Assembly: GCA_021464245.1 (NCBI GenBank)
Contig: JADCRB010000028.1
Location: 6,699,612 to 6,763,611 of the forward strand
DNA from: Carallia brachiata
Taxonomy: Eukaryota > Streptophyta > Magnoliopsida > Malpighiales > Rhizophoraceae
Reading direction: 5' to 3'
Length of the DNA stretch: 64,000 nucleotides
Positions within the stretch are counted from its first letter, which is position 1. Each line of letters opens with the position of its first letter. The position numbers and the translations under genes are program-made. The notes under the pieces were generated by a model. That model saw nothing but the letters and a program-made list of their open reading frames with translations, was not told where the DNA came from and made no database searches. Shown here in pieces: positions 6,948 through 46,413 of this stretch.

Positions 6948-6992
<45 letters not shown>

Positions 6993-7465: not shown

Positions 7466-7469
7466 CTAC

Positions 7470-8030
7470 CAATGCAAAACTTGCTGAGAGTTAGAAGACA
7501 TTTAAACTTTAGAAATTCTAAATTAGGAAAGGGGATATTGTCTATTTTTTCCCCTTTAATAGCTATCACATCTTCCAGTGACTCGCAGTCACATATCTCT
7601 AGTCTTTGGAATTGGGTAAGACATTTGACCATTGATGATATAAAAAGATAATTAATTAGAGTACTGTTATATTTTTTTAAAAAAATATGTCTAAATTGTT
7701 GTTTGAATACAATTAGTTGGATTTAATGTGCAACCGATCGAATTACATGTGCAACAAAATATAAGAAGCAATTTTTTTCTTATAATTAGTTGCATATACA
7801 ATTCGGTCGGTTGCATATTGAATCCGCTTATTTACATTCGGGCAGTAATTCAGACGCTTCTTCTTCCAAAAATATAATTTTTTCCAATTAGAGAAGATCC
7901 CTACAAGTCTCCGCTGTCAAACTTGTTAATTTGTAGAAAGAATGCCAATCTCATCTGCAAATTGTTCGTGTCATATCTTATCCACTCCAATAAAGGATAA
8001 CTTCAGTACTTTCAAAGTTGGGAAAACAAT
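7470..8030 (-). pseudogene. CNL-A exon 2': duplicated, decayed LRR exon
   Basis: A second copy of the exon-2 type LRR exon, upstream of exon 2 on the minus strand. It starts after TAG at 8031-8033 with IVFPTLKVLKLSFIGVDKI, almost the same as the CNL-B exon-2 start, and then hits a stop where the family has Trp. After an inserted MITE (7662-7885) it resumes as MVKCLTQFQRLEICDCESLE and FPNLEFLKFKCLLTLSKFC, and breaks off near 7470 at the hAT-like element. CNL-B has only one such exon, so this is an exon duplication in CNL-A or a loss in CNL-B. It cannot code across its stops and insertions. Confidence 0.72.
7662..7885. mobile_element. MITE copy 1 (224 bp), in the duplicated LRR exon
   Basis: Direct repeats AATTAGAG at 7654-7661 and 7886-7893 flank a 224-bp insert that interrupts homology to the LRR exon. 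Inner sequence is foldback-like: motifs of the kind GTGCAACCGATCGAATT and AATTCGGTCGGTTGCATAT are mutual inverted repeats. The sister copy is at 47517-47737 (221 bp). Target repeats of 8-9 bp point to hAT or Mutator-like transposition; copy 2 has a perfect 9-bp repeat, which favours Mutator-like. Confidence 0.75.
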
Positions 8031-8033
8031 CTA

Positions 8034-8747
8034 CAACCATAATTTTCTATTTCATCAATTTATTTTCACACAAATTTTAAAAAAATAGTAAGAATAAATT
8101 TATGGTAATATTTAAATTATCGTACTTGGTGAGATAAATCCATACCATAAAAAATATTAAACCTTACTGTTTAACAAATTATATGATATCAACATTCCAT
8201 AATCTTATATCTATTCTAACATTCTTAAAGTATTGCACTACAAGCAGTACAGTGTTTGTGAATTTTTTTTTTTTTTTAGTATAACTCATATTATTTTATA
8301 CTACATAAATTTATTTTTTTATTTTATTTATTACAAGCAAATTCCGTATTTATATGATATAAAATTATTAATAAATTATATTCACTCATAAAAACAATCA
8401 AATAAAAAATACTCAATAATATTGGATAACAACTTTCATAAAAAAAACTTTCATATTTATGTCTGCAAATGACCCATCCTAGCCCCTCACACAAACAAAA
8501 ACCAGAAAGAAAAAAGATAGATAACTAGAAGATCTATCTAAAATTTATATGGAGTAATATATTTAAAATTTATTAGTATAATATTATTTTAGATCTAATA
8601 TAAATAAAAAATATATATAATAATTCAAAGGTGTCATCAAAACTTTTTTCTAGTTAAATTTAAGCTAAATAAATTGTCTAGCCATGAAAAACACTCTACC
8701 CGAAAGTATAAAATTATAATGTGATTTATGTCAAGAGAGCACCGTAC
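8034..8747. other. Intron 1 of CNL-A
   Basis: AT-rich non-coding sequence between the exon-1 donor (GT = RC of 8746-8747) and the acceptor of the duplicated exon 2'. No other feature is visible. Confidence 0.5.
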
Positions 8748-9293
8748 CATTTCATTAAATAAGGGCATCGAAGTATCACTTGCTGATTCAATTTCCCTGA
8801 CAGGTGGATCCATTGCAGATTGCTTTTGTCTTGAACTAGACGCGTTTGCGGATGCGGGAGACAGTTTCTCTTTCGAACAAAAGCTTCGGAGCAGTGGCAG
8901 TCGTAACTTCAAGGAGAATAATTGAGTGAACTCCACCACTTCATTTTTGTCATCTTCTTCTTCTTTTGCTTGTTCATTTTCATAAGCAAATAACACTTCC
9001 ATATCACTGCAGTCCATTATTTCCATTTCTCCAAGTTGTTGAAGGTTTCTTCGAACCATGGAAAACGGGAAGAGATTCTTCAATTTGTTGCAGCTTCTGA
9101 CTTTTAGGATTCTTAGTCTGCAGAAGTCCCCTACAAAAGTTTTCCCAGGGAAATCTTGTCCAGGTTCACCAGATTGTGCAGAGTCAACGACTCTAGGGCG
9201 GGAAATGCATCACAAGACCCACCTTTTTGAGTCAATGATATATCGAATCTCTCCATTGTTTGGACATAGAGATGCTTTAATTGCGGAAATCCT
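8748..9293 (-). pseudogene. CNL-A exon 1, 3' part: LRRs after a 2-bp deletion
   Basis: Continuation of exon 1 in shifted frames. After NVLYDL the paralogue CNL-B reads HSEGFP; CNL-A lacks one CA of a CACA pair, so translation stops at TGA. LRR coding continues in another frame (FPQLKHLYV, ALESLTLHNLVNLDKIS), shifts again near 9140, and is then open through CRLRILKVRSC, KNLFPFSMVRRNLQQLGEME, an acidic stretch and SFCSKEKLSP. It ends in PLFNEM before a GT donor at 8746-8747; CNL-B ends its first exon identically. The receptor would be truncated within the LRR unless these shifts are assembly errors. Confidence 0.72.
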
Positions 9294-11633
9294 TCACTGT
9301 AGATCGTACAGCACGTTGGTGATTCCCTTCACTTCATCCAAATAAAGATCTTCTGCGTCCTTCAATAAGGTCTTCAACCCATGCTTGGAGTGAATGCTTG
9401 TATCCAGCTTCAGCTTTAACGTTCTTGAAGTTTGATATTTGCCACCCCAGTCCCACACATCACCAATGAGTATCTTGTATCTTTCTAACTTTTTGGAAGA
9501 CAGCCTCTTTGGTAGTTTCTTGGCATCTGGCACATGAATCTCCAAATTTGTTAGTGACAAGTGCTCCAACTCAGATAGACTTGCATTACTTTGATTGTTG
9601 AGCCGTTTGACCCCCCAATTAACGAAGCTGTCGCCCATGAGCAGTTCTTCTAACTTTGATAGTTGCGACAAGACATTTTCGGGAATGAATTTGAGTTTGG
9701 AACAATTGCTCAAATCTAGCAACTTTAATTGAGTCAATTGTGCTAGATCTCTTGGCAACTCAACAATTTCAGAGCCCCAGAGGCTAAGGATTTCTAGATT
9801 CTTCAGTTGCATAATGACAGAAATGTCGTGCAATGTACAATAGTCCAAACACAAGGTATGAAGGCTTGATAGGGAGCCCAGTGATAAAGGAAGAGATGAG
9901 AAACGCATCCTTGTGAAATCTAGCACTTGGAGCTTCGTTATCCCTTCGAAAAATGTATCGGGGATCTTCAAGGAGAGATCTTTTGCATTTAAGTGAAAGA
10001 ACTCTACTGCTGGGCATTGCGACTTCAGAGAGAGCATAGAAACATCACAGTTTTCCAGATAAATTTTTGTACAACTTGTAATATCCATTCTTTGTAATTC
10101 CTCAAACGAAGCACCAACCTTCTTGAACAGACGTTGAGTTCTAGTTGCAATTGAGGCAGCAACATCTTGAACTACATCATGGATTTTGACACGCCCATCC
10201 ATTTCGCTCTCTGACAACAAGCATGAGGCTTTTAGGTCTCCAATCAACTTATGGACTCTAATTCTAGCATCTTCCATTGTATGTATGTGTTTAAGTAGAC
10301 CCAATCCCATACTGTACGTCAACAAGTCCATGATCGAAATATTAGAATACGTAAATAGACCACAGAGCAAGAAAATTGACTGAGCTTCTTCATCAGGCAA
10401 ATGATCATAACTCAACTTAAGACCAGAGTAGACTTCCTCACCCTTGGATGTAGACAGTCGGTATAAAGCATCCTTCCATATTTCCAACTCTTTATTCTTC
10501 AAAGCACTTGCCACAGTGACAAGTAAAAGAGGGAATCCTGCACACTTCTCGGCCACTTCCATTGCTACAGATTGCAGTTCTGGAATTTTGAGGCCACCCA
10601 CCATCCTTTCAAATAGAGTCCATGACTCCTCTGTTGGTAAAACGTCAAGCATGAACCCTCTCTGCACTGCCATATCAGAGGTTAACAGATCCCGATTTCT
10701 CGAGGTTATTAATAGTTTGCATACCTTCTGATAATTTTTTCTTTGTTCAACTTCAGGCATGGAGTCAGTTCTCATGCTACTGGCCCATTGCTCATTCGCT
10801 ACCGGAATTCCCAATTTTTCCAAATCAATTTTTTCCCAAAGATTGTCCAAAATTATAAGGACTTTTTTCTCTTTCATCAACCTATGATGAAGTCGACTTG
10901 CCCTTCCATCCACAGTCTCCTCCTCGAATATCAAGCCTAGGAAGTCTGCAATACTCCCTTGGATCTCTTTGAGATCAGGTTTTTGAGATACAGTTGCCAT
11001 GGCCACAACATCGAACAAGTTCCCCTCAATCGCTTGCTTGTGGACCTCCCTTGCCAGAGTGGTCTTACCCGTTCCGCCCAAGCCGTAGACACCTATTAGG
11101 TAGATATTGGGATCTGATAGAGCATCCATAACATCTTTGAAAATGGAAGCTCTCGAAGGCAAGCCCTCAAAACCATGAGCGGATGAAGAAATTATCTGCT
11201 GAAGAGGGGCACGGTAGGATATTTGACTTGGATCAAATTTGCCTTCGTTCTCCAGAGCTTGAATAGCCAAAGCTTCCTTGGTCGCTTTCCTGCCAAGCTG
11301 ATGGCGGGTCTTAAGGTTGGGACACCCCCCAGCAAAGCAATTCTTCTTTGCCTCTTCTTCTCCGCGTTGGGTGAGCTCCCCAGCCTCTTTAATTTTATTC
11401 TCCGAATCATTCAGCCACTTTTCGACGGTAGGCTGGATCTCGTCCCCTCTTCTGTTTGCCGCATGAACAGAGTTCTGCAAACTCTCTCTGGTAGCAGCCA
11501 GCTTCTCAACCTGATTCTTGAGCTCAGCAACCTTCCTTGCGTAGCAAAAAGCATATCCGGCATGTCGTATAAGAGGGCCGACAGTGTACTCCAGAACCGT
11601 GGGAACTAAATTAAGAATGATTTCCAAAGCCAT
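9294..11633 (-). CDS. CNL-A: CC-NBS-LRR resistance protein, N-terminal 779 codons
   Basis: Intracellular immune receptor of the plant CNL class (RPS2/RPS5-like type). Residues 1-100 form the CC part with charged heptad-like stretches (VAELKNQVEKLAATRESLQN). NB-ARC follows: P-loop GVYGLGGTGKTT at 181-192, kinase-2 KKVLIILDNLWE at 256-267, RNBS-B KLLITSRNRDLL at 306-317, GLPL as CAGFPLL at 364-370, RNBS-D CGLF near 424, and an MHD-position IHD at 484-486. LRRs start near 530 (LQVLDFTRMRFSSLPLSLGS, LKNLEILSLWGSEIVELPRD). I chose the ATG at 11633 because CNL-B starts at the same MALE; the in-frame ATG 34 codons upstream is not conserved. It stops after VLYDLQ because of a 2-bp loss, although LRR coding continues downstream. 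ATP/ADP switching and cell-death signalling are the family role. Confidence 0.9.
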   Translation of the reverse strand: MALEIILNLVPTVLEYTVGPLIRHAGYAFCYARKVAELKNQVEKLAATRESLQNSVHAANRRGDEIQPTVEKWLNDSENKIKEAGELTQRGEEEAKKNCFAGGCPNLKTRHQLGRKATKEALAIQALENEGKFDPSQISYRAPLQQIISSSAHGFEGLPSRASIFKDVMDALSDPNIYLIGVYGLGGTGKTTLAREVHKQAIEGNLFDVVAMATVSQKPDLKEIQGSIADFLGLIFEEETVDGRASRLHHRLMKEKKVLIILDNLWEKIDLEKLGIPVANEQWASSMRTDSMPEVEQRKNYQKVCKLLITSRNRDLLTSDMAVQRGFMLDVLPTEESWTLFERMVGGLKIPELQSVAMEVAEKCAGFPLLLVTVASALKNKELEIWKDALYRLSTSKGEEVYSGLKLSYDHLPDEEAQSIFLLCGLFTYSNISIMDLLTYSMGLGLLKHIHTMEDARIRVHKLIGDLKASCLLSESEMDGRVKIHDVVQDVAASIATRTQRLFKKVGASFEELQRMDITSCTKIYLENCDVSMLSLKSQCPAVEFFHLNAKDLSLKIPDTFFEGITKLQVLDFTRMRFSSLPLSLGSLSSLHTLCLDYCTLHDISVIMQLKNLEILSLWGSEIVELPRDLAQLTQLKLLDLSNCSKLKFIPENVLSQLSKLEELLMGDSFVNWGVKRLNNQSNASLSELEHLSLTNLEIHVPDAKKLPKRLSSKKLERYKILIGDVWDWGGKYQTSRTLKLKLDTSIHSKHGLKTLLKDAEDLYLDEVKGITNVLYDLQ

Positions 11634-12075
11634 TTGTAAAAAATTCGAAAACGGGAAATATGTCAACAAGACGGGATATGCAATGGGAATCGTTGAACAA
11701 ATGCAGAGAAGGAGAAGGGAAGACACTGACGGCAAAGGAAAGCAGACAAGTAGGAAAGTAAGGAAATACGATTGAAAGGCGTCTTAAAGAGTAGCGAAAT
11801 GGAAGAAAGTTGATAAACAGAGAGAGGAAGAAATGAAGAAGTTAGCAACCCGTTTGTTTGGTAGTTGTAAGTGAAGTAACAGGAACGGGTTTGATGGTAA
11901 TTGGTAATTAAAGGGACAGCGAAATGAGAAAAGAGAGCAGGCAAAGCAAAGAAATAGTAGCAGCTGATGATGATGATGAGCAGTGAGAACTGGAAAGTGA
12001 AGTCCCGTGTAAATGAATCTATGAGAAAAGATTTTTGTGTGACAGGAAAGAGAGAGAGAGAGAGAGAGAGGTGGT
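11634..12075 (-). promoter_or_regulatory. 5' flank of CNL-A with GA-rich tract
   Basis: Upstream region of the CNL-A start codon. It includes a GATGATGATGATGAG tract near 11966 and a (GA)n run at about 12048-12070. No TATA box is certain. From about 11930 onward this flank is the founder-like sequence of the repeat units that occur eight more times in the window. Confidence 0.5.
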
Positions 12076-13305
12076 TGTGTTTAATGCCGTCATCATGCTA
12101 TCTGTAAATTACACAAATAAATTTTAAAAATTTATTATTTAAATGTAAATAAAAAAAGTCTTGAATGACTTTATTTGTTTTAAAGAGTGCCATCAGTAAG
12201 GTATTTTTAATAAAGTATAAAAAAAATATATATAATTAATTTAATAATATTTAATGAATTATTTATTTTATTATTTTTTAAATTTTAAAATATTTTTATA
12301 ATTTAATAATATAAATTATTTTATATTTATCTCACTCTCATAATTATGTATTTAAAAATTTTTTTATTTTTAATCTAAAATTTTAAAGAAAGATTCGGAA
12401 AAGACAATTGCTTGGTGTATCAGAAGTTACAGGAGACAAAAGAAAAGCAAAGAAATAAAGTGTGCAGCCAATGAAAAACCGTTTAGAAAATTAAATAAAT
12501 TGTATTGTATGATTGTATTTTAAATGGTATTAATATTTAATAATTTATTTATTTTTTTAATATTTATATAATAGTGCATAATACTTAATTTTATCTTCAT
12601 CCTGATTAAAGAATTCTACTAAATGCTGTTCAAAATAAATTAGTGTTAAAATGATCTAATTGCTTTTCAAAATTTTTAGGAAAATTTAAAAAGAAAGACT
12701 TGCCGCTTGACTTTGTTGTTAATGTATTTATTTTAATATATCCAACCAGTACTTGCACTCTTTTACGAGGTGTGAAAAAAAAAAAAAAAAAAAAAACAGA
12801 GACAAGATATCTCGTCTTTGATTTTTCCTTTTTTGTTGGTACATCGTCTTTGATTTTTCCAAAAGTACGAACAGATGAACATAAGTTGATTATTGAAATA
12901 AAGTCTACCCACCTGACGCAAAGAAGAAAATAAGGAGGAGCTGGGTCCACAGCATTTTGGAAGAGGGGAAGAATGTGACACAACCAACAGCTAACTAATG
13001 TCGTTTGGATTGTGGAAAGAAAATAATTTAGATATATAAAAAATAAGTAAGAAAAAATATGATAAAAGAAAATTATTTAGATAAATAAAAAATTAATAAA
13101 AAAATAATGATTAAAAAAATAATAATTTTTTAATTTTTGAATTATTTCTTATGAATTCTTCCAATCAAACACTAATAGACGAAAATCATTGACAATCAAA
13201 TCATGAGAACAAAATTTTAAAAAATGGAAAACATTGCTATCTATGACTAAAAAGCATGAGATCAAATAAGGCTTTTCGCAGTTGTAGAAAGTGATAAATA
13301 ATTCA
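11930..13305. repeat. CNL-flank repeat unit 1
   Basis: Non-coding unit recognised by two landmarks. One is a core with GAACTGGAAAGTGAAGTC, GTAAATGAATCTATGA, GATTTTTGTGTGACAGG and GCCGTCATCATGCT (11980-12100). The other is a distal block ending in GGGTCCACAGCATTTTGG (about 12943-12961). Between them lie AATCTAAAATTTTAAAGAAAG and TATTTTAATATATCCAACCA. It joins unit 2 near 13305. Confidence 0.75.
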
Positions 13306-17309: not shown

Positions 17310-17314
17310 CAGAC
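17310..17314. repeat. Target-site duplication, left (CAGAC)
   Basis: CAGAC directly before the 5' LTR; the same five bases follow the 3' LTR at 27638-27642. A perfect 5-bp duplication means the two LTRs belong to one insertion. Confidence 0.95.
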
Positions 17315-17349
17315 TGTAAACATTAAAATTAAAAAAAAAAAAGTCAATA

Positions 17350-17472
17350 GTCGACTTATTCCTTTCGCATGTATGCTTTCACACATAAAAGTCAACTTAT
17401 TCCTTTCGTATGTATGCTTTCACACGAAAAAGTCGACTTATTCTTTTCACATGCGTGCTTTCACACGAGAGG
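17350..17472 (+). promoter_or_regulatory. Triple ~41-bp repeat in the LTR, promoter-proximal
   Basis: Units begin GTCGACTTATTCC, GTCAACTTATTCC and GTCGACTTATTCT, and each contains GCTTTCACAC. They lie just upstream of the TATA box. The 3' LTR keeps the same three units (about 26840-26960). Their position suggests U3 enhancer repeats; the bound factor is unknown. Confidence 0.6.
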
Positions 17473-17480
17473 GGAAACCC

Positions 17481-17488
17481 TATAAATA
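17481..17488 (+). promoter_or_regulatory. LTR TATA box
   Basis: TATAAATA in the context CCCTATAAATAGGCCCC. It is conserved in the 3' LTR (about 26972). Transcription of the element should start about 30 bp downstream. Confidence 0.75.
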
Positions 17489-18147
17489 GGCCCCTGCCCC
17501 TCAGTTCAAAACAGATTCAACAAATCTGTAAACAGAAAAATACAGAGAATTTGAGAAAAAAAGAAAATTCTGAAAATCTCTCAAGAAAATTTCTCCTTTT
17601 TTTACGTGTTTTACTCTGCAGTATACTCTCCTAACTCCTTTTTGAGAGATATTTAAGGGGTAAGCCCCAAAAAAATTTGCTGTTTCTATTTGTAAAGTTA
17701 TTTTTAGGTTTATATTCTCCGATCGCTCTAGATCTGAATTTATGAGAATATAGATCTAAAAATATCAAATTACTACAAATCCGGCTGGGATTAACCCTTA
17801 TAAGGCCCTCAGCAAAATCCAGGCAGTCTATCCGAGAACAAGTCCCTTCGACCCTCGGTGAAATTAAGCCAGATCGGCTCAGATCAGCTCTCTGTGGTTC
17901 TTAACTGTAGTCTAAACGTCCAAACCAGATCCGGTTTCAGTCTACCCAGTTCAAGAAAAAGCTGTGGAATATTTCTGTCAAGATCAAGCTCGTGCAGCCC
18001 TTGACGGAGTCAAAAAGGAACACTAATCGGAGGATCTACGGAGATCGACCCCACAAATTTTCTTTTATTTTAAATTTTTATTTGTAATTTATTTTTGTAT
18101 TTTCGAGTTTAATTTTTTAGACTCGAAATTTACGCTTTACAAATTTT

Positions 18148-18165
18148 TGGCACGCTCGGTGGGAC
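18148..18165 (+). other. Likely primer-binding site
   Basis: TGGCACGCTCGGTGGGAC, six bases after the 5' LTR. It begins with the TGG expected of a site complementary to a tRNA 3' end. I did not assign the tRNA. Confidence 0.55.
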
Positions 18166-18187
18166 TCTTCACCTCCCATTCTTCTTA

Positions 18188-18357
18188 AAAAAAAAAAAAA
18201 AAAGAAAGACAGAGAAAAAAAAAAAAGAAAAAAAAAAAAAAAAAAAAAGTAAAAAAAAAAAAAAGAAAAAAAAAGAAAAAAAAAAAAAAAGAAAAAAAGT
18301 AAAAAAAAAAAAGAAAAAAAAAAGTAAAAAAAAAGTAAAAAAAAAAAAAAAAAATTT
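18188..18357 (+). repeat. A-rich leader tract of the retrotransposon
   Basis: About 170 bases of nearly pure A with scattered G and T, between the primer site and gag. Long open frames in this tract on either strand are compositional artefacts. Confidence 0.85.
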
Positions 18358-18378
18358 TACAGGTGTTCAGCACATCAA

Positions 18379-18933
18379 ATGGCACCGAAAAGTACAACTG
18401 TACCAAAAGAAGGCAACGGCTCCATTGCCTGCATCAACTACCCTACCTGGGTACGCAGGTCCAGAAACCCGGGGACGGACACAATTTCTTGCCGTCCAAA
18501 CCCGACAAAATACGAAATGGAGAGTCCACAGCTCGCACAACAGGATCTCTCCCCTGACTCTCTTGCCGCATGGAGGAGTCGATCACCCACCCCGATCGAA
18601 GTCGGGGGCAACACGACGAAGCCTGCTCAACATCCAACACATTCAGAGACCACACAGAGAATCAGAAGATTCTCCCCAGTCTTTCCCGGAGCCTCATCTG
18701 TTGCCGTCATGATGACCAACACAACCAGTACTGAAGAAAGAATTTCAGAATTGGAGAACAAAATTTTGCAGCTGATCAGAGTCGTGGAGGAAAAAGATCA
18801 ACAGATCGCCGCTCTCAAAGGAAAAGCCCCGATCCAATTGATCCCGAAATCCGCGAGGAGCAACCATATCCACCCGGTTTCACTCCAGAAGCCACACCAG
18901 CCGACGTCTTCCTGCAGAAAAGCGACCAGGTAG
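18379..18933 (+). CDS. gag: gag, N-terminal part
   Basis: Start of the TAT-element gag, about 185 codons from MAPKSTTVPKEGNG. It has no strong domain but contains a short coiled-coil-like segment (TEERISELENKILQLIRVVE, followed by EKDQQIAALKGK), as often seen ahead of the capsid region in this lineage. The frame ends in TAG at 18931, just before the capsid-like part, which continues in another frame; a single-base shift is the simplest cause. Confidence 0.65.
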   Translation: MAPKSTTVPKEGNGSIACINYPTWVRRSRNPGTDTISCRPNPTKYEMESPQLAQQDLSPDSLAAWRSRSPTPIEVGGNTTKPAQHPTHSETTQRIRRFSPVFPGASSVAVMMTNTTSTEERISELENKILQLIRVVEEKDQQIAALKGKAPIQLIPKSARSNHIHPVSLQKPHQPTSSCRKATR

Positions 18934-19095
18934 TTCTACACAGCTGCCACCCTCAAATTCTGTAGCTTCGCTATCTGTTCAACAATTGCAGGAAATGATA
19001 GCCAATACGATCCGACTGCAACAAGCTACATCCTTCCAAGGATCACAGATGTACGTCAAACCGTACACCAGACGGATCGAAAGTCTCAACATGCC

Positions 19096-19569
19096 TTGGG
19101 CTACCAGCCGCCCAAATTTCAACAATTCGACGGACGAGGCGATCCCAAACAGCACATCGCCCACTTCGTTGAAACCTGCAACAACGCAGGGACTTACGGA
19201 GATCTCTTGGTGAAGCAGTTTGTTCGTTCACTCAGGGAGACCGCTTTCACCTGGTTCATAAATCTTGAACCAGAATCGATCGACAGTTGGGAACAGCTAC
19301 AACGAGAGTTCCTCAACAGATTTTTCAGCACTCGAAGGACGGTAAGTATGATGGAGCTTACCAGCACCAAACAAAGGAAAGGAGAGCCCGTTGTCGAATA
19401 CATCAACAGATGGCGTGCCCTCAGCTTGGACTGCAAAGATCGCCTGACGGAGACTTCTGCCGTGGAGATGTGCATCCAGGGAATGCATTGGGAGCTGTTA
19501 TACATCCTGCAGGGTGTCAAACCCCGAACTTCGAAGAACTGGCGACCCGCGCACATGATATGGAGATAA
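19096..19569 (+). CDS. gag: gag, capsid-like core
   Basis: Matches the retrotransposon gag core of plant gypsy elements: FDGRGDPKQHIAHFVETCNN, FVRSLRETAFTWFINLEPES, then WEQLQREFLNRFF and VVEYINRWRALSLDCKDR. This part forms the particle shell. The real frame probably begins further upstream, since related sequence precedes 19096 in a shifted frame. The frame leaves gag homology after GVKPRTSKNW, where the next frame continues with NFEELATRAHDME. Confidence 0.8.
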   Translation: MGYQPPKFQQFDGRGDPKQHIAHFVETCNNAGTYGDLLVKQFVRSLRETAFTWFINLEPESIDSWEQLQREFLNRFFSTRRTVSMMELTSTKQRKGEPVVEYINRWRALSLDCKDRLTETSAVEMCIQGMHWELLYILQGVKPRTSKNWRPAHMIWR

Positions 19570-20170
19570 GCATCCAGACTTCCGGAGGCACGGTTCCCAT
19601 CCAGTTGGACCAGCAAGGGGGCAGAAGGGAGATTAAGAAACCCAACAGCTCCGGAAAAGGAAAAGAAGTGATGACTGTTGAAGCCGCACCAGTAAAAGTG
19701 GGCGCCAAAGCTAAGGTAAATCCTCCGACCCAAATAACTCAGCCAAAACAACAGGAAAGGCGGAAGGTGACATTGCGAGAGTTGGAGCAAGCAGTATCCA
19801 TTCCCCGACTCAGACGTCCCCGACATTCTTGACAACTCTGGAGGCGAAGCTGATCGAACTCCCAGAGTGCAAGCGGCCGAATGAAAAGGATCGAGTCAGC
19901 GATCCGAGATTCTGCAAATATCACCGGATAGTAAGTCATCCAACCGAGAAGTGTTTCGTCCTGAAGGAGCTAATCATGAAGCTCAAAAGCCAGAATAAAA
20001 TCATTCTGGACCAGGAAGGCATAACCTCTGCAAACCAGACCACCATCACTTCAAAACCATCAGAAGAGGTGACACACGTAAGGAGGAGCCGCTCGACAAC
20101 AAAAAGTCGACAACGGAGAAGGTATATGAAGCTCTCCAAACCCTTCTCGCTAACCCTCAGCTGTTTATAG
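19570..20170 (+). CDS. gag: gag, C-terminal part with Cys/His motif
   Basis: Two frames cover the gag tail. The first (open to 19832) carries NFEELATRAHDMEISIQ and a basic, Lys-rich segment. The second (19829-20170) carries FCKYHRIVSHPTEKCFVLK, the C..H....H....C spacing typical of the nucleic-acid-binding end of TAT gag. The frame change lies near 19825. Nothing else separates it from the protease region that begins at 20173. Confidence 0.65.
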
Positions 20171-20172
20171 CT

Positions 20173-20883
20173 TTGCAATCAACAGAAGTGTGGCAAAATC
20201 AAGTCAGCAATACTCTCCAGACCTCAGCTGAATCACAGCCATCAAATGATTCTAACTCAGCGGAGCAACAGACGGACCAAAATCACGTCGGATGTTACTC
20301 TGCTATCTCATTTTCAGATGAGGATCTCCTGCTGGGGTCCAAACCCCACAATCGGCCGCTGTATGTATCAGGCTATGTGAGAGAACAGAAGGTCCGACGT
20401 ATTCTGATCGACGATGGCTCAGCAGTCAATATTATCCCAAAATCCACCATAAAGGAGCTCGGCATCGGCATTGATGAATTATCAGACAGCCGCTTGATGA
20501 TTCATGGCTTTAATCAAGGAGGACAGAAAGCAATTGGGATGATTCGCTTGGAGCTAACTATCGGTAATCTCACTTCTAGCACTCTATTTCACGTGATTGA
20601 TGCACGTACCACATATAAGATGTTGCTAGGACGACCGTGGATTCATGGAAATGGAGTTGTGCTCTCAAGCCTGCATCAGTGCTTCAAGTACTACAATGGT
20701 GGCGTTCAAAAGGTCAATGCTGACTTAAAGCCGTTCGATGATGCTGAATCACATTTGGCGGATGCAGTCTTCTACACCGACACAGACAATCCGGAGATCA
20801 TTCCATCAAAAGCTACTTGGACTGGGGGCATCCACAAAAAGGGAAAAGCTGTCGAAGAACCTGCCAATGCCAACCCAGGCTAA
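20173..20883 (+). CDS. Aspartic protease (retropepsin) domain
   Basis: Pol-type aspartic protease that would cut the polyprotein. The active-site segment is VRRILIDDGSAVNIIPKSTI, with D-G-S after an Asp as in many plant gypsy elements. The fold continues with GFNQGGQKAIGMIRLEL and ends with TTYKMLLGRPWIHGNGVV, the conserved LLGRPW(I)H block. It is one open frame of 236 codons ending in TAA. Confidence 0.85.
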   Translation: MQSTEVWQNQVSNTLQTSAESQPSNDSNSAEQQTDQNHVGCYSAISFSDEDLLLGSKPHNRPLYVSGYVREQKVRRILIDDGSAVNIIPKSTIKELGIGIDELSDSRLMIHGFNQGGQKAIGMIRLELTIGNLTSSTLFHVIDARTTYKMLLGRPWIHGNGVVLSSLHQCFKYYNGGVQKVNADLKPFDDAESHLADAVFYTDTDNPEIIPSKATWTGGIHKKGKAVEEPANANPG

Positions 20884-21109
20884 CAAATGAAAAGCTGCCA
20901 CAGCCTGCTGAACTTCGTCCGAAGGATGTTGCATCTTCAAGCTCCACTCCAGTCCTACGCTATGTGCCGAAGTCACGACGCTCAGAAGGTCAACCCCCTT
21001 TCTCTTATTGTATTGATCTAAACAGGAGCAACATAGCCAACCCAAAACAAAGGAGCTGCACAACCTGAAGGAGACTTACACTCTGCCGATACCAAAGATT
21101 GAGCCGGTT

Positions 21110-21514
21110 TTGTCTTCAAAACCATTAAAAGGCTTCGTCAAACCACACACGGGGGCAGTCGAAGGCGGCTCACTTCCAGAAAGAAGAACACATGAAGGAT
21201 TTGATCCTAATGCATACAAGCTTTTGGCAAAGGCGGGCTATGACTTCTCAAACCCGAGCACAATGGGTACGCTGCCGTCCACACATGGCGCCGCTTCTCA
21301 AACATCACAGTCCCGACCTGGCTTAGGCTATCAGGAGAAGTCACCTGTGCGGATCACGCTAAAGAGCCGAAGCCGAGCAGCTGATGCACGTGCCATCACC
21401 ACCACCAACAAGACAGGCTTATCCAGTCAAACAAAGAAGGTGAAGTCAGAGGTTCTGCATTTCATGTCACAATTAGCGAGGAGGCTGATTCCGACTCATC
21501 AGATGGTGAAGTGA
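21110..21514 (+). CDS. Protease-RT linker of the TAT polyprotein
   Basis: Contains HEGFDPNAYKLLAKAGYDF and SRPGLGY, segments found in the linker of TAT pol proteins. The region from 20884 to 21110 continues similar linker sequence in another frame (LRYVPKSRRSEG), so at least one frameshift lies here. No catalytic function. Confidence 0.6.
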   Translation: MSSKPLKGFVKPHTGAVEGGSLPERRTHEGFDPNAYKLLAKAGYDFSNPSTMGTLPSTHGAASQTSQSRPGLGYQEKSPVRITLKSRSRAADARAITTTNKTGLSSQTKKVKSEVLHFMSQLARRLIPTHQMVK

Positions 21515-23046
21515 AGGAGGCTCCCCCGGAACTTGAAGATGGTGGCCAAGCAACTGTTGATGAACTCAAGGAGGTCAATCTTGGCTCTCCGGAAGATCCT
21601 CGACCTACATTTGTAAGTGCTTTACTTACTGCAGAAGAAGAGCAAGAATATGTTCAGGTATTAAGTCAATACAGGGACGTGTTCGCATGGAGTTACAAAG
21701 AAATGCCTGGACTTGACCCAAAAATTGCGGTGCATCGTCTAGCAGTAAAGAAGGGTGTTCGTTCTGTCAAGCAGCCACAACGACGGTTCCGCCCGGAACT
21801 CATTCCACAAATCGAGGAGGAGGTAACAAGCTGATCAATGCGGCTTCATCCGAGAGGTCACCTACCCAACGTGGATTGCCAACATTGTCCCGGTAAGAAA
21901 GAAGAATGGACAGTTGAGGGTATGTGTTGATTTTCGAGATCTTAACAAGGCCTGCCCGAAAGATGACTTTCCGTTGCCCATAACGGAGATCACAGTCGAT
22001 GCAACAACGGGTCACGAAGCATTGTCTTTCATGGATGGTTCTTCAGGCTATAACCAAATCAGAATGGCACCAGAAGACGAGGAGTTGACAGCATTCCGCA
22101 CCCCAAAAGGTATATACTGCTACAAAGTTATGCCGTTTGGATTAAAAATGCTGGCGCCACTTATCAACGTGCTATGCAAAAAATTTTTGATGACATGCTG
22201 CACAAGATTGTAGAATGTTATGTTGATGACTTAGTTGTAAAGACTAAGAAGCGCAAAGACCACCTCGAGGATCTCAAGACAGTGTTCGAAAGACTTCGGA
22301 GGCATCAGCTCAAAATGAACCCTCTCAAGTGCGCATTCGGTGTCACATCAGGAAAGTTTCTTGGGTTCGTGGTGCGCCATCGTGGAATCGAAGTTGATCA
22401 GTCAAAGGTTGAGGCAATTCAAAAGATGCCTGAACCTAAAAACCTGCACGAGCTGCGAAGTCTACAAGGAAAGCTGGCCTACATTCGCCGTTTCATCTCC
22501 AATTTAGCTGGGAGATGTCAACCTTTCCATCGGTTGATGAAGAAGGATGTCAACTTCGAGTGGGACGAAGCTTGCAGCAAAGCCTTTGAGAGCATAAAGA
22601 AGTACCTTTCCAATCCACCAGTCCTGGGAGCTCCAATTCAAGGAAAGTCGTTGATTCTCTACATTGCAGCGCAGGAAAGATCTTTGGGAGCCTTGCTTGC
22701 ACAGGAAAACGAGCAGGGAAAGGAAGTTGCCCTGTACTACTTGAGCAGAACACTAAACGGTCCGGAGCTGAGTTATTCGCCCATTGAAAAGACATGTCTA
22801 GCACTGTTCTTTGCCATTGACAAGCTGAGGCACTACATGCAAGCTCACACGGTACGTCTCATTGCCAGAGCTGATCCTGTCAAATATATCTTATCTAGAC
22901 CAATCTTGTCAGGACGACTTGCCAAGTGGGCAGTAATCCTACAAAGCTACGACATTGTCTACGTGCCTCAAAAAGCAGTCAAAGGACAAGCTCTAGCAGA
23001 CTTCCTTGCAGATCACCCTATCCGTCGATTGGGAGTTCACAGATGA
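21511..23046 (+). CDS. Reverse transcriptase and first RNase H, frameshifted
   Basis: The sequence runs through KQPQRRFRPELIPQIEEEV, VRKKNGQLRVCVDFRDLNKA, MDGSSGYNQIRMAPEDE and CYKVMPFGLK to the catalytic CYVDD (Tyr codon at 22219). It then continues to a gypsy-type RNase H (LILYIAAQERSLGALLAQ, LSYSPIEKTCLALFFAIDK). Frames change near 21828 and near 22150, where a run of A is one short of that needed for GLKNAGATYQ. With those ignored the domain is complete. Confidence 0.88.
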
Positions 23047-23746
23047 TCTTCCAGATGAAGAGGTCTTTTACATTGAGACACTGCCACCATGGACGATGTT
23101 CTTTGATGGTGCAGCAAGGCGTGATGGTGCTGGTGCCGGCATAGTGTTTGTCACTCCTCAACGACAAATACTACCATATGCTATCATTCTCGGTGAGTTA
23201 TGTTCAAATAATGTTGCTGAATACCAGGCTTTGATCATTGGTCTTCAAATGGCTGTCGATATGAAGATTCCAACTATAGAAGTCCATGGAGATTCCCAGC
23301 TCGTCATCAACCAACTTACAGGATTGTATGATGTGAAGAAAGAGGACCTTGCGCCTTACCATCAACGTGCTCGACAGCTAATGGATGAATTTGAAAGCAT
23401 CACCTTGGAGCATGTGCCTCGACGAGAAAACACTCAGGCAGACGCGTTGGCTAACCTGGCCACTTCTCTTGCAAAGTCAGAAATCCAGGCTACAGTTGTT
23501 GCCGTATGCCAGAAATGGATAGTGCCACAGAAGGATGATGAAGAAACTACAGCAGCCAACGCTGTATCTGTACGTCTCGCGGAGGACGAGGATTGGCGCC
23601 AACCAATCATTGACTACCTACAGCACGGGAAGCTGCCCGAAGATCGTCGTCATAAGACAGAAATTCAACGACGAGCTCCCCGCTTCATATATCTCAAGGA
23701 TGCTCTGTATCGAAGGTCTTTTGATGGAGTTTACTTCGCTGCCTAG
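23006..23746 (+). CDS. Second (archaeal-type) RNase H, TAT lineage marker
   Basis: Opens with MFFDGAARRDGAGAGIVFV, continues with ELCSNNVAEYQALIIGL and EVHGDSQLVINQLTG, and closes with VPRRENTQADALANLA. The acidic residues D, E, D and D typical of type-I RNase H are all visible. This extra domain between RNase H and integrase defines the TAT lineage. It is uninterrupted over 246 codons and overlaps the previous frame by a one-base shift near 23030. Confidence 0.88.
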   Translation: MQITLSVDWEFTDDLPDEEVFYIETLPPWTMFFDGAARRDGAGAGIVFVTPQRQILPYAIILGELCSNNVAEYQALIIGLQMAVDMKIPTIEVHGDSQLVINQLTGLYDVKKEDLAPYHQRARQLMDEFESITLEHVPRRENTQADALANLATSLAKSEIQATVVAVCQKWIVPQKDDEETTAANAVSVRLAEDEDWRQPIIDYLQHGKLPEDRRHKTEIQRRAPRFIYLKDALYRRSFDGVYFAA

Positions 23747-24835
23747 CAATGAAGAGGCAAAACAGGCTCTCACTGAAGCACATTCTGGTGTTTGTGGCGG
23801 ACATCAATCAGGGCCTAAGTTGCACTTCCAACTCAGAAGGATGGGATACTACTGGCCAACCATGGTACGTGATTCAATTGAGTTTGCTAAAACCTGTCAA
23901 GCTTGTCAATTTCATGCGAATTACATACATCAACCACCGGAGCCACTGCATCCAACTGTCTCATCCTGGCCCTTTGAAGCTTGGGGTCTCGACTTAGTGG
24001 GGCCCTTGCCAAAGTCATCCCTGGGTCACCTGTACATCCTCGCAGCAACCGACTACTTCTCAAAATGGGCTGAAGCCATTCCACTTAGAGAGGTAAAGAA
24101 GGAGCATGTTGCCAATTTCATCCGGACTCAGCTGATCTATCGCTATGGAGTCCCTCGATTCATCATCACTGATAATGGTAAGCAGTTCTACAACAGCTTA
24201 ATCGACAAGCTCTGCGAGAAGTTCAAGTTCAAGCAGTACAAGTCATCCATGTACAATGCCCCAGCAAATGGCTTGGCCGAAGCATTCAACAAGACCTTAT
24301 GCAACCTGTTGCGGAAGGTAGTCTCTAAATCCAAAAGAGATTGGCATGACAGAATTCCGGAGGCATTATGGGCGTATCGTACAACTTACCGGACTCCAAC
24401 ACAGGCGACGCCATACTCACTTGTCTACGGTGTCGAAGCAATACTGCCGTTGGAAACACAGATTCCATCCTGCGCATGGCTGTTCTGGAAGGACTCACAC
24501 AGGAGGAGAATGCTCGCCTACGTCTGGATGAGTTAGAAGCCCTTGATGAAAGGAGGCTCGAAGCACAACAGCAACTTGAGTGCTACCAAGCCCGGCTCAC
24601 CAACACGTTCAACCGCAGGGTCCGCCCTCGATCTTTTCAAGTTGGAGACCTTGTTCTTGCAGTGCGACGGCCCATCAACATGAAGCATCGGCCTGGTGAC
24701 AAGCTTACTTCCAAATGGGACGGGCCATACTTAGTGCAGGAGGCCTACACTCACAACGCTTACATGCTGTCAGACCAAGAAGGCGTCCGAATCGGCCCAA
24801 TCAATGGTAAATTTCTGAAACAGTATTATGTGTAA
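23703..24835 (+). CDS. Integrase and C-terminal domain, frameshifted
   Basis: N-terminal zinc-binding part: H at AHSGVCGGH and CQAC. Core with Asp in AWGLDLVGPLPKS, Asp in RFIITDNGKQF and Glu in NGLAEAFNKTL, giving the D,D,E triad. The frame changes near 24465, and the C-terminal part continues with RVRPRSFQVGDLVLAVRRPI and KLTSKWDGPYLVQEAY to TAA at 24833-24835. The tail has no chromodomain, as expected for non-chromovirus gypsy elements such as TAT. Confidence 0.88.
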
Positions 24836-24842
24836 ATATGTT

Positions 24843-25165
24843 TAAAAAAAAATCAAAAAAAAAAAAAAAAAAAAAAATCAAAAAAATCAAAAAAAAAAAA
24901 AAAGTTCAAGTCCCGATCTGAAATCAAACGAAAAAATCCGAAAACCAACCGAAATCCAACCCAAACACTTGAGCCCAATCAGAAAACACAAGCCCAACTC
25001 AAAACCCAAAACTAATCAGTCCAAACCCAAACACTCGACCCAAATCCAAAAAGTCCAAGTCCAAAGCCCAAACACTATACCCAAATCCAATCCAAAGCCC
25101 AAAACCCAAAATTCAAAGTTCCAGACACAGTCCAGAACCCAAGTTCAAAATCCAATCCAACTTCT
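24843..25165 (+). repeat. Poly-A and CCAAA-rich low-complexity spacer
   Basis: An A tract (24843-24903) is followed by about 250 bp of CCCAAA/CCAAAT-like repeats without G. It separates integrase from the captured homeobox gene. Open frames here are compositional. Confidence 0.8.
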
Positions 25166-25201
25166 GGCCCGCATGAGTATAAACTGTGAACGGCCCAAAA
25201 A

Positions 25202-25208
25202 TATAAAA
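25202..25208 (+). promoter_or_regulatory. Possible TATA box of the captured homeobox gene
   Basis: TATAAAA in the context CCAAAAATATAAAAGCAACGG, about 90 bp before the ATG at 25297. It may be a promoter carried along with the gene, which would argue against a pure mRNA-derived copy, or a chance AT-rich match. Confidence 0.35.
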
Positions 25209-25296
25209 GCAACGGAGGGTTTGAGTCTGAAACTCAGCATCAGTCTCAACCGATCTTCACCACCTACCAGACCTTTGCTCCTCTGCCACAAGAAAG

Positions 25297-25881
25297 ATGG
25301 AACCAGTTGCAGAACCTCAAGATAAGGGAGAATAAAGGTCACCCCGCACAAGGTGGCAACCAACCATGGCACAACTGTAAATTTTGGAGGAAGTCTTCTG
25401 TAACAATAGAGGTATTATGCCTAATGCATCTTATATTTACCAACTTGTCTCACGATTGCGCCCACTCGGGGCAATTGAAGGAAAAAATGTGTTTTATTGG
25501 TTCCAGAATCGGAGAAGTAGGAAGAAACCAACACTGAGAGCTGCTTTTTCCAAAGAACAGTCTGTCGTTCCGATAGTAGATCTCACCGGTACAACTTCGC
25601 CCTCAAATGAAGCAGGTCCGAGTTCTACCACGACAATAGTCTCTTCAGGCTATAACGATCAAAGCTGTAGCCTGTGGGAGCATGCGTACTGGTCCTGGTG
25701 GTCTTACGGAGTCAGCTAAGGGTTCATCCCTCCTAAGTACTTAAGTCTAGGTACTTTGCCTCTCTTTCCAGAATATTCCGGTAGCATCAACCAGCCGGAA
25801 AGCGACGTCAACATCATTGGCCCACCAGACGAGGCCCAGCTTGACTTGGAGTTGCGCCTCGGGCCCTGCCAGGACGGCTGA
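25297..25881 (+). pseudogene. Intronless WUSCHEL-type (WOX) homeobox gene copy inside the retrotransposon
   Basis: One reading frame of 194 codons from MEPVAEPQ to stop at 25879-25881, interrupted by TAA at 25333, 25378 and 25717. The homeodomain starts RTRWQPTMAQL, a stop sits at the next position, and it resumes with ILEEVFCNNRG and LVSRLRPLGAIEGKNVFYWF, then QNRRSRKK. GKNVFYWFQN is specific to WOX proteins. The C-terminal half has TLPLFP (WUS-box type) at 25753-25770 and LDLELRLG (EAR-type repression motif). So all three signature elements of the WUS clade stay in one frame and in order, with no intron. WOX proteins are transcription factors that maintain stem-cell niches. The three stops suggest decay, though no frame shift has occurred. 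It lies in sense orientation, after integrase. Confidence 0.82.
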
Positions 25882-26790
25882 CAAGATGAGGTGCAACGAC
25901 TTCTGCAGCACACGGCAACGACTTCTGCAATACACGGTAACGACTTTCGTGACACGCGTCAGCCGCTGCCTCTTTTGTCTCTTATGCGGGAAAGGGACGT
26001 GGATAACTCTACTCGATTCTGCGTACCTTCTTTTTGACTTTTAAAAAAAAAAAAAAACTCTTTATTGTTTGTATGTATATTCTACATGTCCGAGTTGTAA
26101 TACTCACCCCTCAGCTCTTCTTTCTCTCAAAAAGAAAATTGCTAGTCTCTGCACTTGTCTCAGAAAGTTCTTTGATCAAGAAGTTGGAGGCGCACGAGCT
26201 AAGAAAAGAAGAAGTAGTCCTTATCGAGGGATTCCTAAAAGCCCTCGAAATTCAGTCTCCAACGCCATCGGTGTCATGGAGTTCCAACTACTCTCCTTAG
26301 TTCACATCTATCGCAGCGAGCCGAGAAATTCTGATCGTCCTCCTGGATCTACAAATGCAGCAACGAGCAGGGAAGTTCCAACTACTCTCCTTACGTCGAA
26401 GCAGATTCGGGAATCATCACCATAACCCGTCTCTCTGTGTGCAGGTCTTGAAGTTCTATAGTGCTGGGGCCTTCCTCATGGGAAGGTTCAAGTTCTTTGC
26501 CTACCGGATCATCTTCACCAGAGCTTTCGAACTTCAAAGAACCTTTGCCAGCCTTTTCGAGCTATGGAAGCTCGACCTCACCTGGAGCCAAGGCTTCAAT
26601 TTCTATATTGGCTGGGCTGCTAACTTTCTCAAGATCGTATCGGATTCCTATTGTGATCCAACAACAGCAGGCATAGTCAGAGATAGAAGATTTCAACATT
26701 CAATGTTCATCAAGACATTTCAAACTTCAAGCTGGACTTCAAGACTCGGATCGGATCACGACCGCAAAGTTCTTCCTTACCGACCCTTGA
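25882..26790 (+). other. Retrotransposon 3' internal region, no recognised gene
   Basis: Begins with short direct repeats around AACGACTTCTGCA (about 25894-25950). The rest has several overlapping open frames without motifs that I recognise, such as one at 26355-26807. It may be the remains of an extra ORF or transduced host DNA. Confidence 0.4.
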
Positions 26791-26802
26791 AGTGGGGGCA
26801 TT
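26791..26802 (+). other. Polypurine tract
   Basis: AGTGGGGGCATT directly before the 3' LTR; the G-rich purine run is the expected plus-strand primer. Confidence 0.75.
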
Positions 26803-27637
26803 TGTAAACATTAAAATTAAAAAAAAAAAAAAGTCAATAGTCGACTTATTCCTTTCGCATGTATGCTTTCACAGAGAAAAGTCGACTAATTCCTTTCGCA
26901 TGTATGCTTTCACACGGAAAAGTCGACTTGTTCCTTTCACATGCGTGCTTTCACACGAGAGGGGAAACCCTATAAATAGGCCCATGCCCCTCAGTTCAAA
27001 ACAGATTCAGCAAATTTGTAAACAAAAAATACAGAGAATTTGAGAGAAAAAGAAAATTCTGAAAATCTCTCAAGAAAATTTCTCCCTTTTCTTACGTGTT
27101 TTACTCTGCAGTATACTCTCCTAACTCCTTTTTGAGAGATATTTCAGGGGTAAGCCCAAAAAAAATTTGTTGTTTCCATTTGTAAAGTTATTTTTAGGTT
27201 TATATTCTCCGATCGCTTTAGATCTGAATTTATGAGAATATAGATCTAAAAATATCAAATTACTACAAATCCGGCTGGGATTAACCCTTATAAGGCCCTC
27301 AGCAAAATCCAGGCAGCTTATCCGAGAACAAATCTCTTCGACCCTCGGTGAAATTAAGCCAGATCGGCTTAGATCAGCTCTCTGTGGTTCTTAACCGTAG
27401 TCTAAACGTCCAAACCAGATCCAATTTCAGTCTACCTAGTTCAAGAAAAAGCTGTGGAATTTACTGCTGTCAAGATCAAACTCGTACAGCCCTTGACGGA
27501 ATCAAAACAGGAACACTAATCGGAGGAATCACGAAGGTTGACCCCACAAAATTTTCTTTTATTTTAAATTTTTATTTGTAATTTATTTTTTTTATTTTCG
27601 AGTTTAATTGTTTTAGACTCGAAATTTACTCGTTACA
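26803..27637 (+). repeat. 3' LTR
   Basis: 835 bp, TGTAAACATT to CGTTACA. It is colinear with the 5' LTR, with scattered substitutions and small indels. CAGAC follows at 27638-27642. Confidence 0.95.
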
Positions 27638-27795
27638 CAGACCTCCCTCAAACTTAATCACGATAATTGTCGAGTTTGACATTTACGCTGCGCACTGTAG
27701 TTGCCTGAGGCAACTATCCAGCACATTAACTAGGAAACACTAATGCGGAAACTCAAATTTAAGTCACAATTAAAAAAAATATGTTAGGTTACTAC
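27638..27795. other. Right target duplication and anonymous flank
   Basis: CAGAC (27638-27642) completes the target duplication. The next 150 bp (CTCCCTCAAACTTAATCACG onward) do not match the neighbouring repeat units and may be a remnant of another element at the insertion site. Confidence 0.5.
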
Positions 27796-43413: not shown

Positions 43414-44277
43414 TTACCAAATGCAAAGGATTTCTCTATTCACATACCTTTCAGTAAACAACTGTTGTATGGTAGCATTAAGATTTCTATGCCAGCGGCC
43501 TTTCTCATCTTCATACTTTTGTTTTACATTCTCAAGCTTTGGCGTGCTCAAGGCACCTTTTGAGAAAAACTTCATCTTTGGGCATTGGCTCACAATTACT
43601 TTTGACAAAGACGGGAATTTGAAGTTGTGATTTGCTGAGCAAAAGCTAGTGAGGCTTGGTAAACAATTGAGTTCCAAAGTGACTAATCTTCTGAACATGA
43701 CATCCTCTTCAGTTTCACAGCCCTCACTGGCTACTATTTCTGTCAACTCGTTGCATTGTATTATCCTCATTATTCGCAGCTGCACCAGAGATTTGGCAGT
43801 TGAGGAAGCCACTATGTTTACTAATCCATGGCAATCTTTCATTTCCAAAGCTGTTAGGCTTTGGAAAGAAGCAGAGGATGGTGCCAAATTGCTCAAATTG
43901 TCACAAGACCATACTACTAGAGTTTCAAGGTTTGGAAGGACATGGTCTGGCTGAGACTCTTGATTCCATATTTGTTCTAGAACAGGCATATTTCGTAATT
44001 TTAAATATCGTATTTGAGCCAGCGCCCTTTTATGTTCCTCGTTGTCGAAAAGTTCTTTAGATGCAAATAGCTCTTTGAATTGACTATATCCAACACCAAG
44101 TGCCTCCAAATTATGGAATCTGTGAAGGAATTCAAATGGAAAAGCTGTAGATTCACCATGAAAGCATTGCAGCGCAAGAAATTTGAGTTTGTCAAAGAGG
44201 TTTGCTGGAAATTGGCGTTTCCATATCATTGTGACATCTTCATTGTTCAGTCTTAGTTCCTCCAAGCCAGGGGCGAC
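43414..44277 (-). CDS. CNL-B exon 4: C-terminal LRRs, open
   Basis: Intact LRR exon of about 287 codons after CAG at 44278-44280: VAPGLEELRLNNEDVTMIW, FHNLEALGVGYSQFKELFAS, LPNLETLVVWSCDNLSNLA, FPSLSKVIVSQCPKMKFFS, and the tail DEKGRWHRNLNATIQQL. It is the best reference for the frameshifted exon 4 of CNL-A. Either translation ends at the stop at 43414-43416, or splicing occurs at ERY|GT near 43446 (GAAAG|GTATGTG), giving a slightly different end. The exon is open although exon 1 of the same locus is shattered. Confidence 0.8.
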   Translation of the reverse strand, partial: VAPGLEELRLNNEDVTMIWKRQFPANLFDKLKFLALQCFHGESTAFPFEFLHRFHNLEALGVGYSQFKELFASKELFDNEEHKRALAQIRYLKLRNMPVLEQIWNQESQPDHVLPNLETLVVWSCDNLSNLAPSSASFQSLTALEMKDCHGLVNIVASSTAKSLVQLRIMRIIQCNELTEIVASEGCETEEDVMFRRLVTLELNCLPSLTSFCSANHNFKFPSLSKVIVSQCPKMKFFSKGALSTPKLENVKQKYEDEKGRWHRNLNATIQQLFTERYVNREILCIW

Positions 44278-46384: not shown

Positions 46385-46410
46385 CTGCAACCACAATTTA
46401 GTTTCACCAT

Positions 46411-46413
<3 letters not shown>

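Follow-up and report, generated by a model that had tools for sequence, protein, structure and literature searches.

How did a homeobox gene of the WUSCHEL (WUS) type come to lie in a retrotransposon of Carallia brachiata, and what might it do there? The window, by which we mean the whole stretch of 64,000 nt of C. brachiata DNA that was analysed, is part of a 337.5-Mb genome. Coordinates are window positions unless they follow a label of the form L0xx, which marks a copy or locus, and features lie on the plus strand unless stated otherwise. We think it probable that a Tat family took up a processed WUS-type gene, multiplied it and uses it as a trans-acting repressor; taken as a whole, this is our best explanation for the findings that follow.

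The element is a 10.3-kb LTR retrotransposon of the Tat-type Ty3/gypsy kind at 17315-27637. Its 5' LTR (TGTAAACATT...TTTACA, 17315-18141) and 3' LTR (26803-27637) were delimited by LTR comparison and from the sequence; the LTR ends TGTAAAC...TTACA and the target site duplication CAGAC, at 17310-17314 and again at 27638-27642, agree with the TG...CA LTRs and 4-5-bp duplications expected of Tat elements. Directly after the 5' LTR stands a primer-binding-site candidate, GGCACGCTCGGTGGGAC (18149-18165), and ahead of the 3' LTR a polypurine-type tract, AAGTGGGGGCATT (26790-26802), both read from the sequence. Between them, Pfam places gag (Retrotrans_gag PF03732, 18934-19569), an aspartic protease region (PF13650/PF13975, 19999-20883, below the curated cut-offs), reverse transcriptase with RNase H (PF00078, PF17917 and PF17919, 22054-23046), a second RNase H, or aRH (RVT_3 PF13456, E 2.6e-25, 22997-23746), and integrase (PF17921 and PF00665, 23523-24536). 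Two RNases H, the second between RNase H and integrase, are described as the mark of angiosperm Tat elements (PMC6317226). Since the aRH of the window element has this position, the element is, judged by its domain order, a member of the Tat lineage of Ty3/gypsy.

The WUSCHEL-type homeobox ORF (25297-25881) lies in sense between the integrase and the 3' LTR of this CAGAC-flanked element, and it reads as the sequence-only reading had described it: one intronless WOX frame with, in order, a homeodomain (R19 to K77 in ORF numbering, 25351-25527; found by Pfam, with coordinates counted from the translation), a WUS-box TLPLFP (25753-25770) and a C-terminal EAR motif LDLELRLG (25840-25863), the last two counted from the sequence and its translation. 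That reading had stated that an HMM search without a WOX-domain match would refute it; this was not the outcome. The stop-free piece 25381-25680 matches the Homeodomain model PF00046 above its cut-off (E 8.9e-7, 29.1 bits against 22.9), two intact copies match it with E of about 1e-12, and phmmer finds 6ry3, a structure of the WUS homeodomain, with E 1.3e-18. It is a plant-type homeodomain with a WFQN recognition helix. The three in-frame stops (25333, 25378 and 25717, before the terminal stop at 25879) and the lack of a frameshift were also borne out; compared with the intact copy L009, the window ORF differs in gaps only by in-frame deletions of 36 and 12 nt. The earlier suggestion that this copy lost function recently or that other copies are intact holds in its second half, as described below; for the window copy recent loss is unsupported, and its LTRs, at 94.0% identity, are separated by 38 substitutions over about 825 aligned positions.

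Which WOX gene was the source? From its motifs and from profile searches, WUS appears the likeliest, and the homeodomain tree alone leaves the source open. In the structural description of the WUS homeodomain (PMC7203112), DNA is read by R38, Q89, N90 and R94, W39 is anchored and one residue is inserted at Y54. The homeodomain of L009 has the equivalents of R38, W39, Q89, N90 and R94 and keeps the insertion at the Y54 site, as H. This extra residue in helix 1/loop I (the Y54 pi-bulge) gives the element a spacing of 42, equal to that of AtWUS, and it occurs in 9 of 239 database matches, seven of them WUS-like and two WOX3-like. Together with the WUS-box and the EAR motif, these residues are what the cargo shares with WUSCHEL (AtWUS and the host loci L035 and L036). 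It differs from WUSCHEL in the homeodomain as a whole, which is about 52% identical (32 of 62 residues), in the continuation of the recognition helix (RRSRKK against HKARER), and in having an ORF of about 205 residues without an intron and on a long branch. Among nine host WOX loci tested, a set that leaves aside host WOX9 and WOX13, ETLPLFP was found solely in the two WUS loci; the other seven have TLQLFP, TLELFP or ALPLFP. The C-terminal EAR was found in L035 and was not picked up by the pattern in L036.

We judge it unlikely that the cargo came from a modern-clade WOX gene other than WUS, of which WOX3 would be the first candidate, though several features point that way. When a single sequence is used as query, a WOX3 protein heads the best 120 of 235 matches (58% over the homeodomain), the stretch ILEE..GGI.PNASQI is WOX3-like, and the loop length is common to the two WOX3-like proteins noted above. 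However, a profile built from seven copies matches a protein named WUSCHEL (E 2.2e-18), and among its best 120 of 667 matches, 28 stand above the first WOX3; none of these is named WOX3, 10 are called WUSCHEL or WUSCHEL-like, two have other names and 16 have uninformative ones. The C-terminal LxLxL is found in 6/6 WUS but in 2/74 WOX3-like database matches, and ETLPLFP fits host WUS and not the TLELFP of host WOX3. The protein P0048, which the database names WUS, is WOX3-like. The phylogeny that the earlier reading had called for was run on the homeodomain. It leaves a WUS placement unrejected and does not settle the source: rooted on WOX9/13, the tree has the element branching outside the modern WOX clade (88/81), and the AU test gives p 0.27 for the element with WUS and a marginal p 0.048 for the element with WOX3. 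When the outgroup is omitted, both placements are unrejected (WOX3, p 0.475), and the best tree joins the element to WUS (support 83/18). The element's homeodomain branch is long, about 1.5 changes per site. When 5.8 billion proteins were searched twice, no close relative of the cargo appeared among the best 120 of 235 and the best 120 of 667 matches, where identities are at most 62% and essentially confined to the homeodomain. Returning to WUS as the likeliest source, the earlier notion of a WOX cargo can be sharpened to a WUS-type cargo on the basis of ETLPLFP, the C-terminal EAR and the profile search. In host WUS, the homeodomain and the WUS-box are on different open stretches, with 1.06 and 1.17 kb between them; in the element they lie about 0.3 kb apart in one frame, which indicates a processed form. 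Loss of the intron during later retrotransposition is equally possible as a substitute for processed capture.

Our genome-wide searches now further show that the ORF belongs to the family. A degenerate pattern for the homeodomain core NVFYWFQ, with at most one mismatch allowed, has 709 matches in the genome compared with 4 for the reversed control; these counts, with the E value of the seven-copy profile, exclude chance. The element's spelling occurs in 96 of the 100 pattern matches listed (4 differ), so that about 680 of the 709 would belong to the element if those 100 are representative. A PF00046 search of the host genome gave at least 150 scored matches, and one homeodomain type recurs in many of them. 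We fetched 20 stretches: 19 are about 10 kb long, and the other, at the end of a contig, has 4.7 kb. Of the 20, one (L012) is host WOX9, and the remaining 19 are element copies, in which the WOX region was present at the same place in 19/19, the end of pol in 17/19 and gag in 10/19, some stretches ending before gag. All copies were located through WOX, so the sampling covers elements that carry it. The loci L049-L053, fetched as possible host WOX, are HD-ZIP III-like in what we take to be their identity and were left out. On the minus strand, two WOX pattern matches lie 862 bp apart (G000:C1:424771 and 425633), in nested or duplicated copies.

The 43 fetched non-host loci all match the ORF over nearly its full length (615-621 of 621 nt). 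When the window is included, 13 of 44 aligned copies are free of stops and frame-breaking indels, a share that leans upwards because most copies were picked by homeodomain score; eleven of the 13 also keep the start ATG, and two of these eleven, L019 and L022, encode an identical protein. The pattern list supplied another 16 copies (L054-L069), one of which (L057) is intact, a share that leans downwards because the copies in the PF00046 listing, together with a few others, were excluded from that sample. Looking for the same ORF in other copies, as had been proposed, thus rejects a one-off insertion into the element. The idea that the element captured a WOX gene and spread it is supported by the same intronless ORF at the same place in all 19 element stretches, by the intact copies and by the several hundred pattern matches.

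High copy number can also be had by an autonomous element alone, and we considered whether the ORF is a fragment of host WUS that was picked up once, is useless to the element and was retained for want of removal. Evidence for such uselessness would be the 15 of 16 pattern-list copies that are broken, in a sample that leans to poor copies, and residues 81-207, where dN/dS is 0.62-0.73 and near neutral (49/300 simulations were as low as 0.62). The homeodomain behaves differently. Its dN/dS is 0.17 in 12 copies that are open from homeodomain to EAR (a set without L045 and without L022, which has the same protein as L019, and including L026, with a 1-nt insertion before the homeodomain, and L021, with a shifted start). 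In 17 copies not chosen for intactness (the 16 pattern-list copies and the window, with the pattern codons omitted), it is 0.296, far under the neutral simulation (mean 0.716, sd 0.18; 0/300 as low). The simulation is a rough null: it assumes a simple tree of two levels and takes its substitution spectrum from the 3' noncoding region. For the whole ORF the value is 0.52, and 2/300 simulations were as low. The dN/dS comparison among copies suggested earlier thus gave, in rounded figures, 0.30 against a neutral 0.72 in the homeodomain and a near-neutral remainder.

The codon positions of the variants tell more about when this constraint applied. Without recourse to the simulated null, homeodomain variants found in two or more of the 17 copies are distributed 8/4/15 over codon positions 1/2/3, and singletons 14/14/8 (Fisher p 0.009); the same contrast in the 12-copy set gives p 0.006. 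Because shared and private variants contrast in this way, constraint acted during propagation of the element and ended after insertion, and the homeodomain shows signs, in its substitution pattern, of having been constrained while the element spread. Indels are depleted as well: compared with the window copy, WOX has a substitution-to-indel ratio of 43.7 and the 3' noncoding region one of 6.6. Three of the seven shared indel types are in-frame (a 12-nt type in 21 copies, a 6-nt type in 7 and another of 6 nt), and the two commonest, of 12 and 6 nt, fall at one repetitive site; the other four are frame-breaking 1-nt types in two copies each. Of the private indels, 37/48 are frame-breaking. The leucines of the EAR are retained in 41/43, 44/44, 44/44 and 43/44 copies, with a mixed H/R position between them. 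In the WUS-box, L, L and F are retained in 43/43, 42/43 and 43/44 copies, P in 38/43 (TLPLFP or a near variant) and the first T in just 34/44. Against a useless fragment, then, stand the low homeodomain dN/dS, the contrast between shared and private variants, the depletion of indels and a conserved TATA leader described next; the long homeodomain branch also implies long residence or fast change with the frame still open. We therefore regard retention without use as having perhaps one chance in a handful, and keep to a cargo that would serve the element as a protein.

Upstream of the ORF, a conserved leader (25147-25296) has an all-pairs divergence of 0.040 among 17 copies, compared with 0.098 in the 3' noncoding region (20 copies) and 0.21 in a CCCAAA-rich array further upstream. 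The leader alignment comprises 17 of 20 copies, including the window; L017, L022 and L025 were missed by the start-site string. It contains a TATA box, AATATAAAAGC (25200-25210), which lies about 90 bp before the ATG and is invariant in the 17 aligned copies. The GGCCCA motif beside it resembles, as we presume, site II (TCP) elements. Small indels distinguish the copies in the reading frames upstream of the ORF. Because the TATA leader is conserved and the upstream frames differ between copies, we infer a separate transcript, and the WOX ORF is predicted to be transcribed from its own leader promoter. A translational fusion with pol is unlikely, since indels of 1-3 nt vary just upstream of the ATG while the frame of the ORF stays. 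Of additional note, L027 has no CCCAAA array but, in its place, repeats of a unit containing GTATAAAAGGCGAC, with several TATA-like boxes in series.

The conserved leader and the CCCAAA-rich array, together with two TGGGCY sites in the window 3' LTR (0.31 expected; 9/300 shuffles had as many), could also be taken to mean that the WOX stretch works as nucleic acid, either as promoter or enhancer cargo or as a source of small RNAs against host WUS, and not as protein. We give this little credence. Constraint in the homeodomain tracks codon position, and with homeodomain identity to WUS at 32 of 62 residues, matching of small RNAs to host WUS would be unlikely. Regulation of the element by its own product through the LTR was considered separately: homeodomain-type sites are not enriched in the window 3' LTR (ATTA, 9 against 11.6 expected; TTAATG, 1 against 0.75), and such self-regulation is unsupported by the site counts in that LTR. 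In the 3' region, a block of about 200 bp (26122-26320) is conserved, with a divergence of 0.03-0.05 per 40-bp step. It has a peptide-like frame but no codon-position bias, and we rejected it as a second coding gene.

Some copies have lost much of the element and kept WOX. L019, L020, L021 and L023 have gag deleted and keep the 5' LTR, pol and WOX. Two of the 19 stretches, L025 and L027, are LTR elements of about 5 kb in which WOX is the only recognised gene. L025 (5037-9917) is about 4.9 kb long, starts with TGTAAACACC at 5037, has the flanks GCTTC/GCTTT with one mismatch, and has paired LTRs (95.4% over 739 bp) around the WOX leader, ORF and 3' region. L027 (4985-9951) is alike, with LTRs of 96.4% over 726 bp and its right end outside the fetched stretch. 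Five pieces, from gag, protease, reverse transcriptase, RNase H and integrase, gave no tblastn match at 1e-5 in either. The WOX frame is intact in L027 and has one stop in L025. The primer-binding-site candidate GGCACGCTCGGTGGGAC is exact in 12/19 fetched element stretches (some end short of this region), among them both WOX-only elements, and the polypurine motif GAAGTGGG*CATT is in 15/19. Since the strings that follow the 5' LTR and precede the 3' LTR of the long element are kept, the WOX-only elements could be moved in trans. In a different kind of rearrangement, most of pol is gone from L015 (L015:2163-6837), replaced by a stretch in which each of the three forward frames stays open for about 1400-1550 codons and which presumably consists of tandem repeats.

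Within-copy LTR differences range from 1 in 789 (L021) to 20 in 208 (L024, a partial LTR), so activity has been long-lasting and includes recent insertions. This LTR clock is contradicted by gag-pol (window 18934-24836; copies L009-L028), which is uniform even in copies whose LTRs are several per cent apart: segment medians are 0.14-0.57% substitutions against the window, with many 1-nt indels, and the LTRs, leader, WOX and 3' region have medians of 5.5-11.5%. This uniformity could stem from gene conversion or from polishing towards one common sequence, and 1-nt frameshifts, those in WOX included, may for that reason be overcounted. That an assembly artefact inflates or distorts the family, as this oddly uniform, indel-rich gag-pol might suggest, is very improbable: the copies are real because their WOX, leader, 3' region and LTRs diverge from the window, the LTR pairs vary from copy to copy and the window element has a target site duplication.

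Based on these findings, we propose the following scheme for the trans-acting repressor. A Tat-lineage element would have acquired an intronless WUS-type gene as an extra 3' sense ORF and carried it to several hundred copies. The ORF would be transcribed from its leader promoter and not translated with gag-pol. The product would enter the nucleus and bind WUS-like sites through its homeodomain. WUS-box and EAR motifs recruit TOPLESS-type co-repressors, and those of the cargo would do so here; the cargo can thus be pictured as a mobile TOPLESS-recruiting repressor, perhaps active in meristems. Protein from intact copies would act in trans for the whole family. What the element gains may be a more permissive cell state, for example in meristematic cells that feed the germ line, or a lowered host defence; this is the step that we hold least firmly. 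WUS is reported to repress methyltransferases in an antiviral role (PMC7960677), and such repression could equally work against a parasite.

The statement in the sequence-only reading that no WOX gene was known as transposon cargo is outdated. A 2023 meeting report (Naito, PMC10714607) describes Vigna marina and V. riukiuensis as rich in WOX copies, most of which lie between identical LTRs; the latter species has more than 1000. Our family is like the Vigna case in having WOX-family genes mostly flanked by identical LTRs with target site duplications, and in being amplified, here to hundreds of copies. The Vigna host is a legume, and the section of the report on it gives no WOX subtype, element lineage, gag-pol, selection or promoter. 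Our host does not resemble Vigna: the closest matches to its WOX9 come from Malpighiales (53%), as against 45% for V. unguiculata. Apart from Vigna, we found no further LTR-WOX report among the matches listed in a literature search that lacked bioRxiv and most subscription journals. The phenomenon is thus already known in kind from one brief report, and what is new here is a second host, the Tat context with gag-pol, the WUS-type features, the evidence for constraint, the predicted leader promoter and the WOX-only elements.

Extra domains of host origin are already known from Tat and other Gypsy elements. In OTA elements, the domains of extra ORFs (eORFs) that were reported as most prominent (Neumann et al. 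2019, PMC6317226) are plant mobile domain, Transposase_28 and Athila ORF1. In common with the Tat eORF-3'F elements (Ogre/Retand-type) of that survey, our element has RNase H and aRH before integrase and an extra ORF between pol and the 3' LTR. Its cargo of about 205 codons falls below the 250 codons at which the scope of the survey begins, and the word "homeodomain" was not found in the survey's main text. A Phalaenopsis Ty3/gypsy element with a 2-ODD/AlkB ORF (PMC9289625) likewise keeps a host-derived domain in a Gypsy element with dual RNase H; its cargo is an RNA demethylase, and ours a developmental transcription factor. The screen of 121 genomes in that paper has G-patch, AIR1, B3 (Aegilops), YgdH, which is the LONELY GUY domain (Citrus), and AlkB among 15 domains, and neither "homeobox" nor "homeodomain" was found in its text.

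In this family, a plant stem-cell master regulator has turned into a mobile gene that exists in hundreds of copies, some of them intact. If expressed, it may act as a genome-wide repressor and change meristem behaviour, and this might explain the success of the element. LONELY GUY also has a meristem role. Taken with the Vigna report, our family suggests recurrence, which makes testable the hypothesis that retrotransposons profit from stem-cell control where germ cells are set aside late. In plants, which lack an early germ line, an element that promotes stem cells or acts in them would, on our proposed reading, gain access to future gametes. Extending this, we speculate that the capture of stem-cell regulators of the shoot meristem has recurred in plant Gypsy elements, with WUS in our family, WOX in Vigna and a LONELY GUY-type domain in Citrus, because it opens a way to the gametes; the WOX-only elements of about 5 kb would then be selfish transcription-factor genes on borrowed gag-pol. 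We advance this as a long shot. More practically, a tally of WOX genes in a plant genome may in fact be a tally of transposons. Outside the element, two stretches of the window (2802-12097 and 43414-50952, minus strand) contain long ORFs, which we take to read like NB-ARC and LRR disease-resistance genes.
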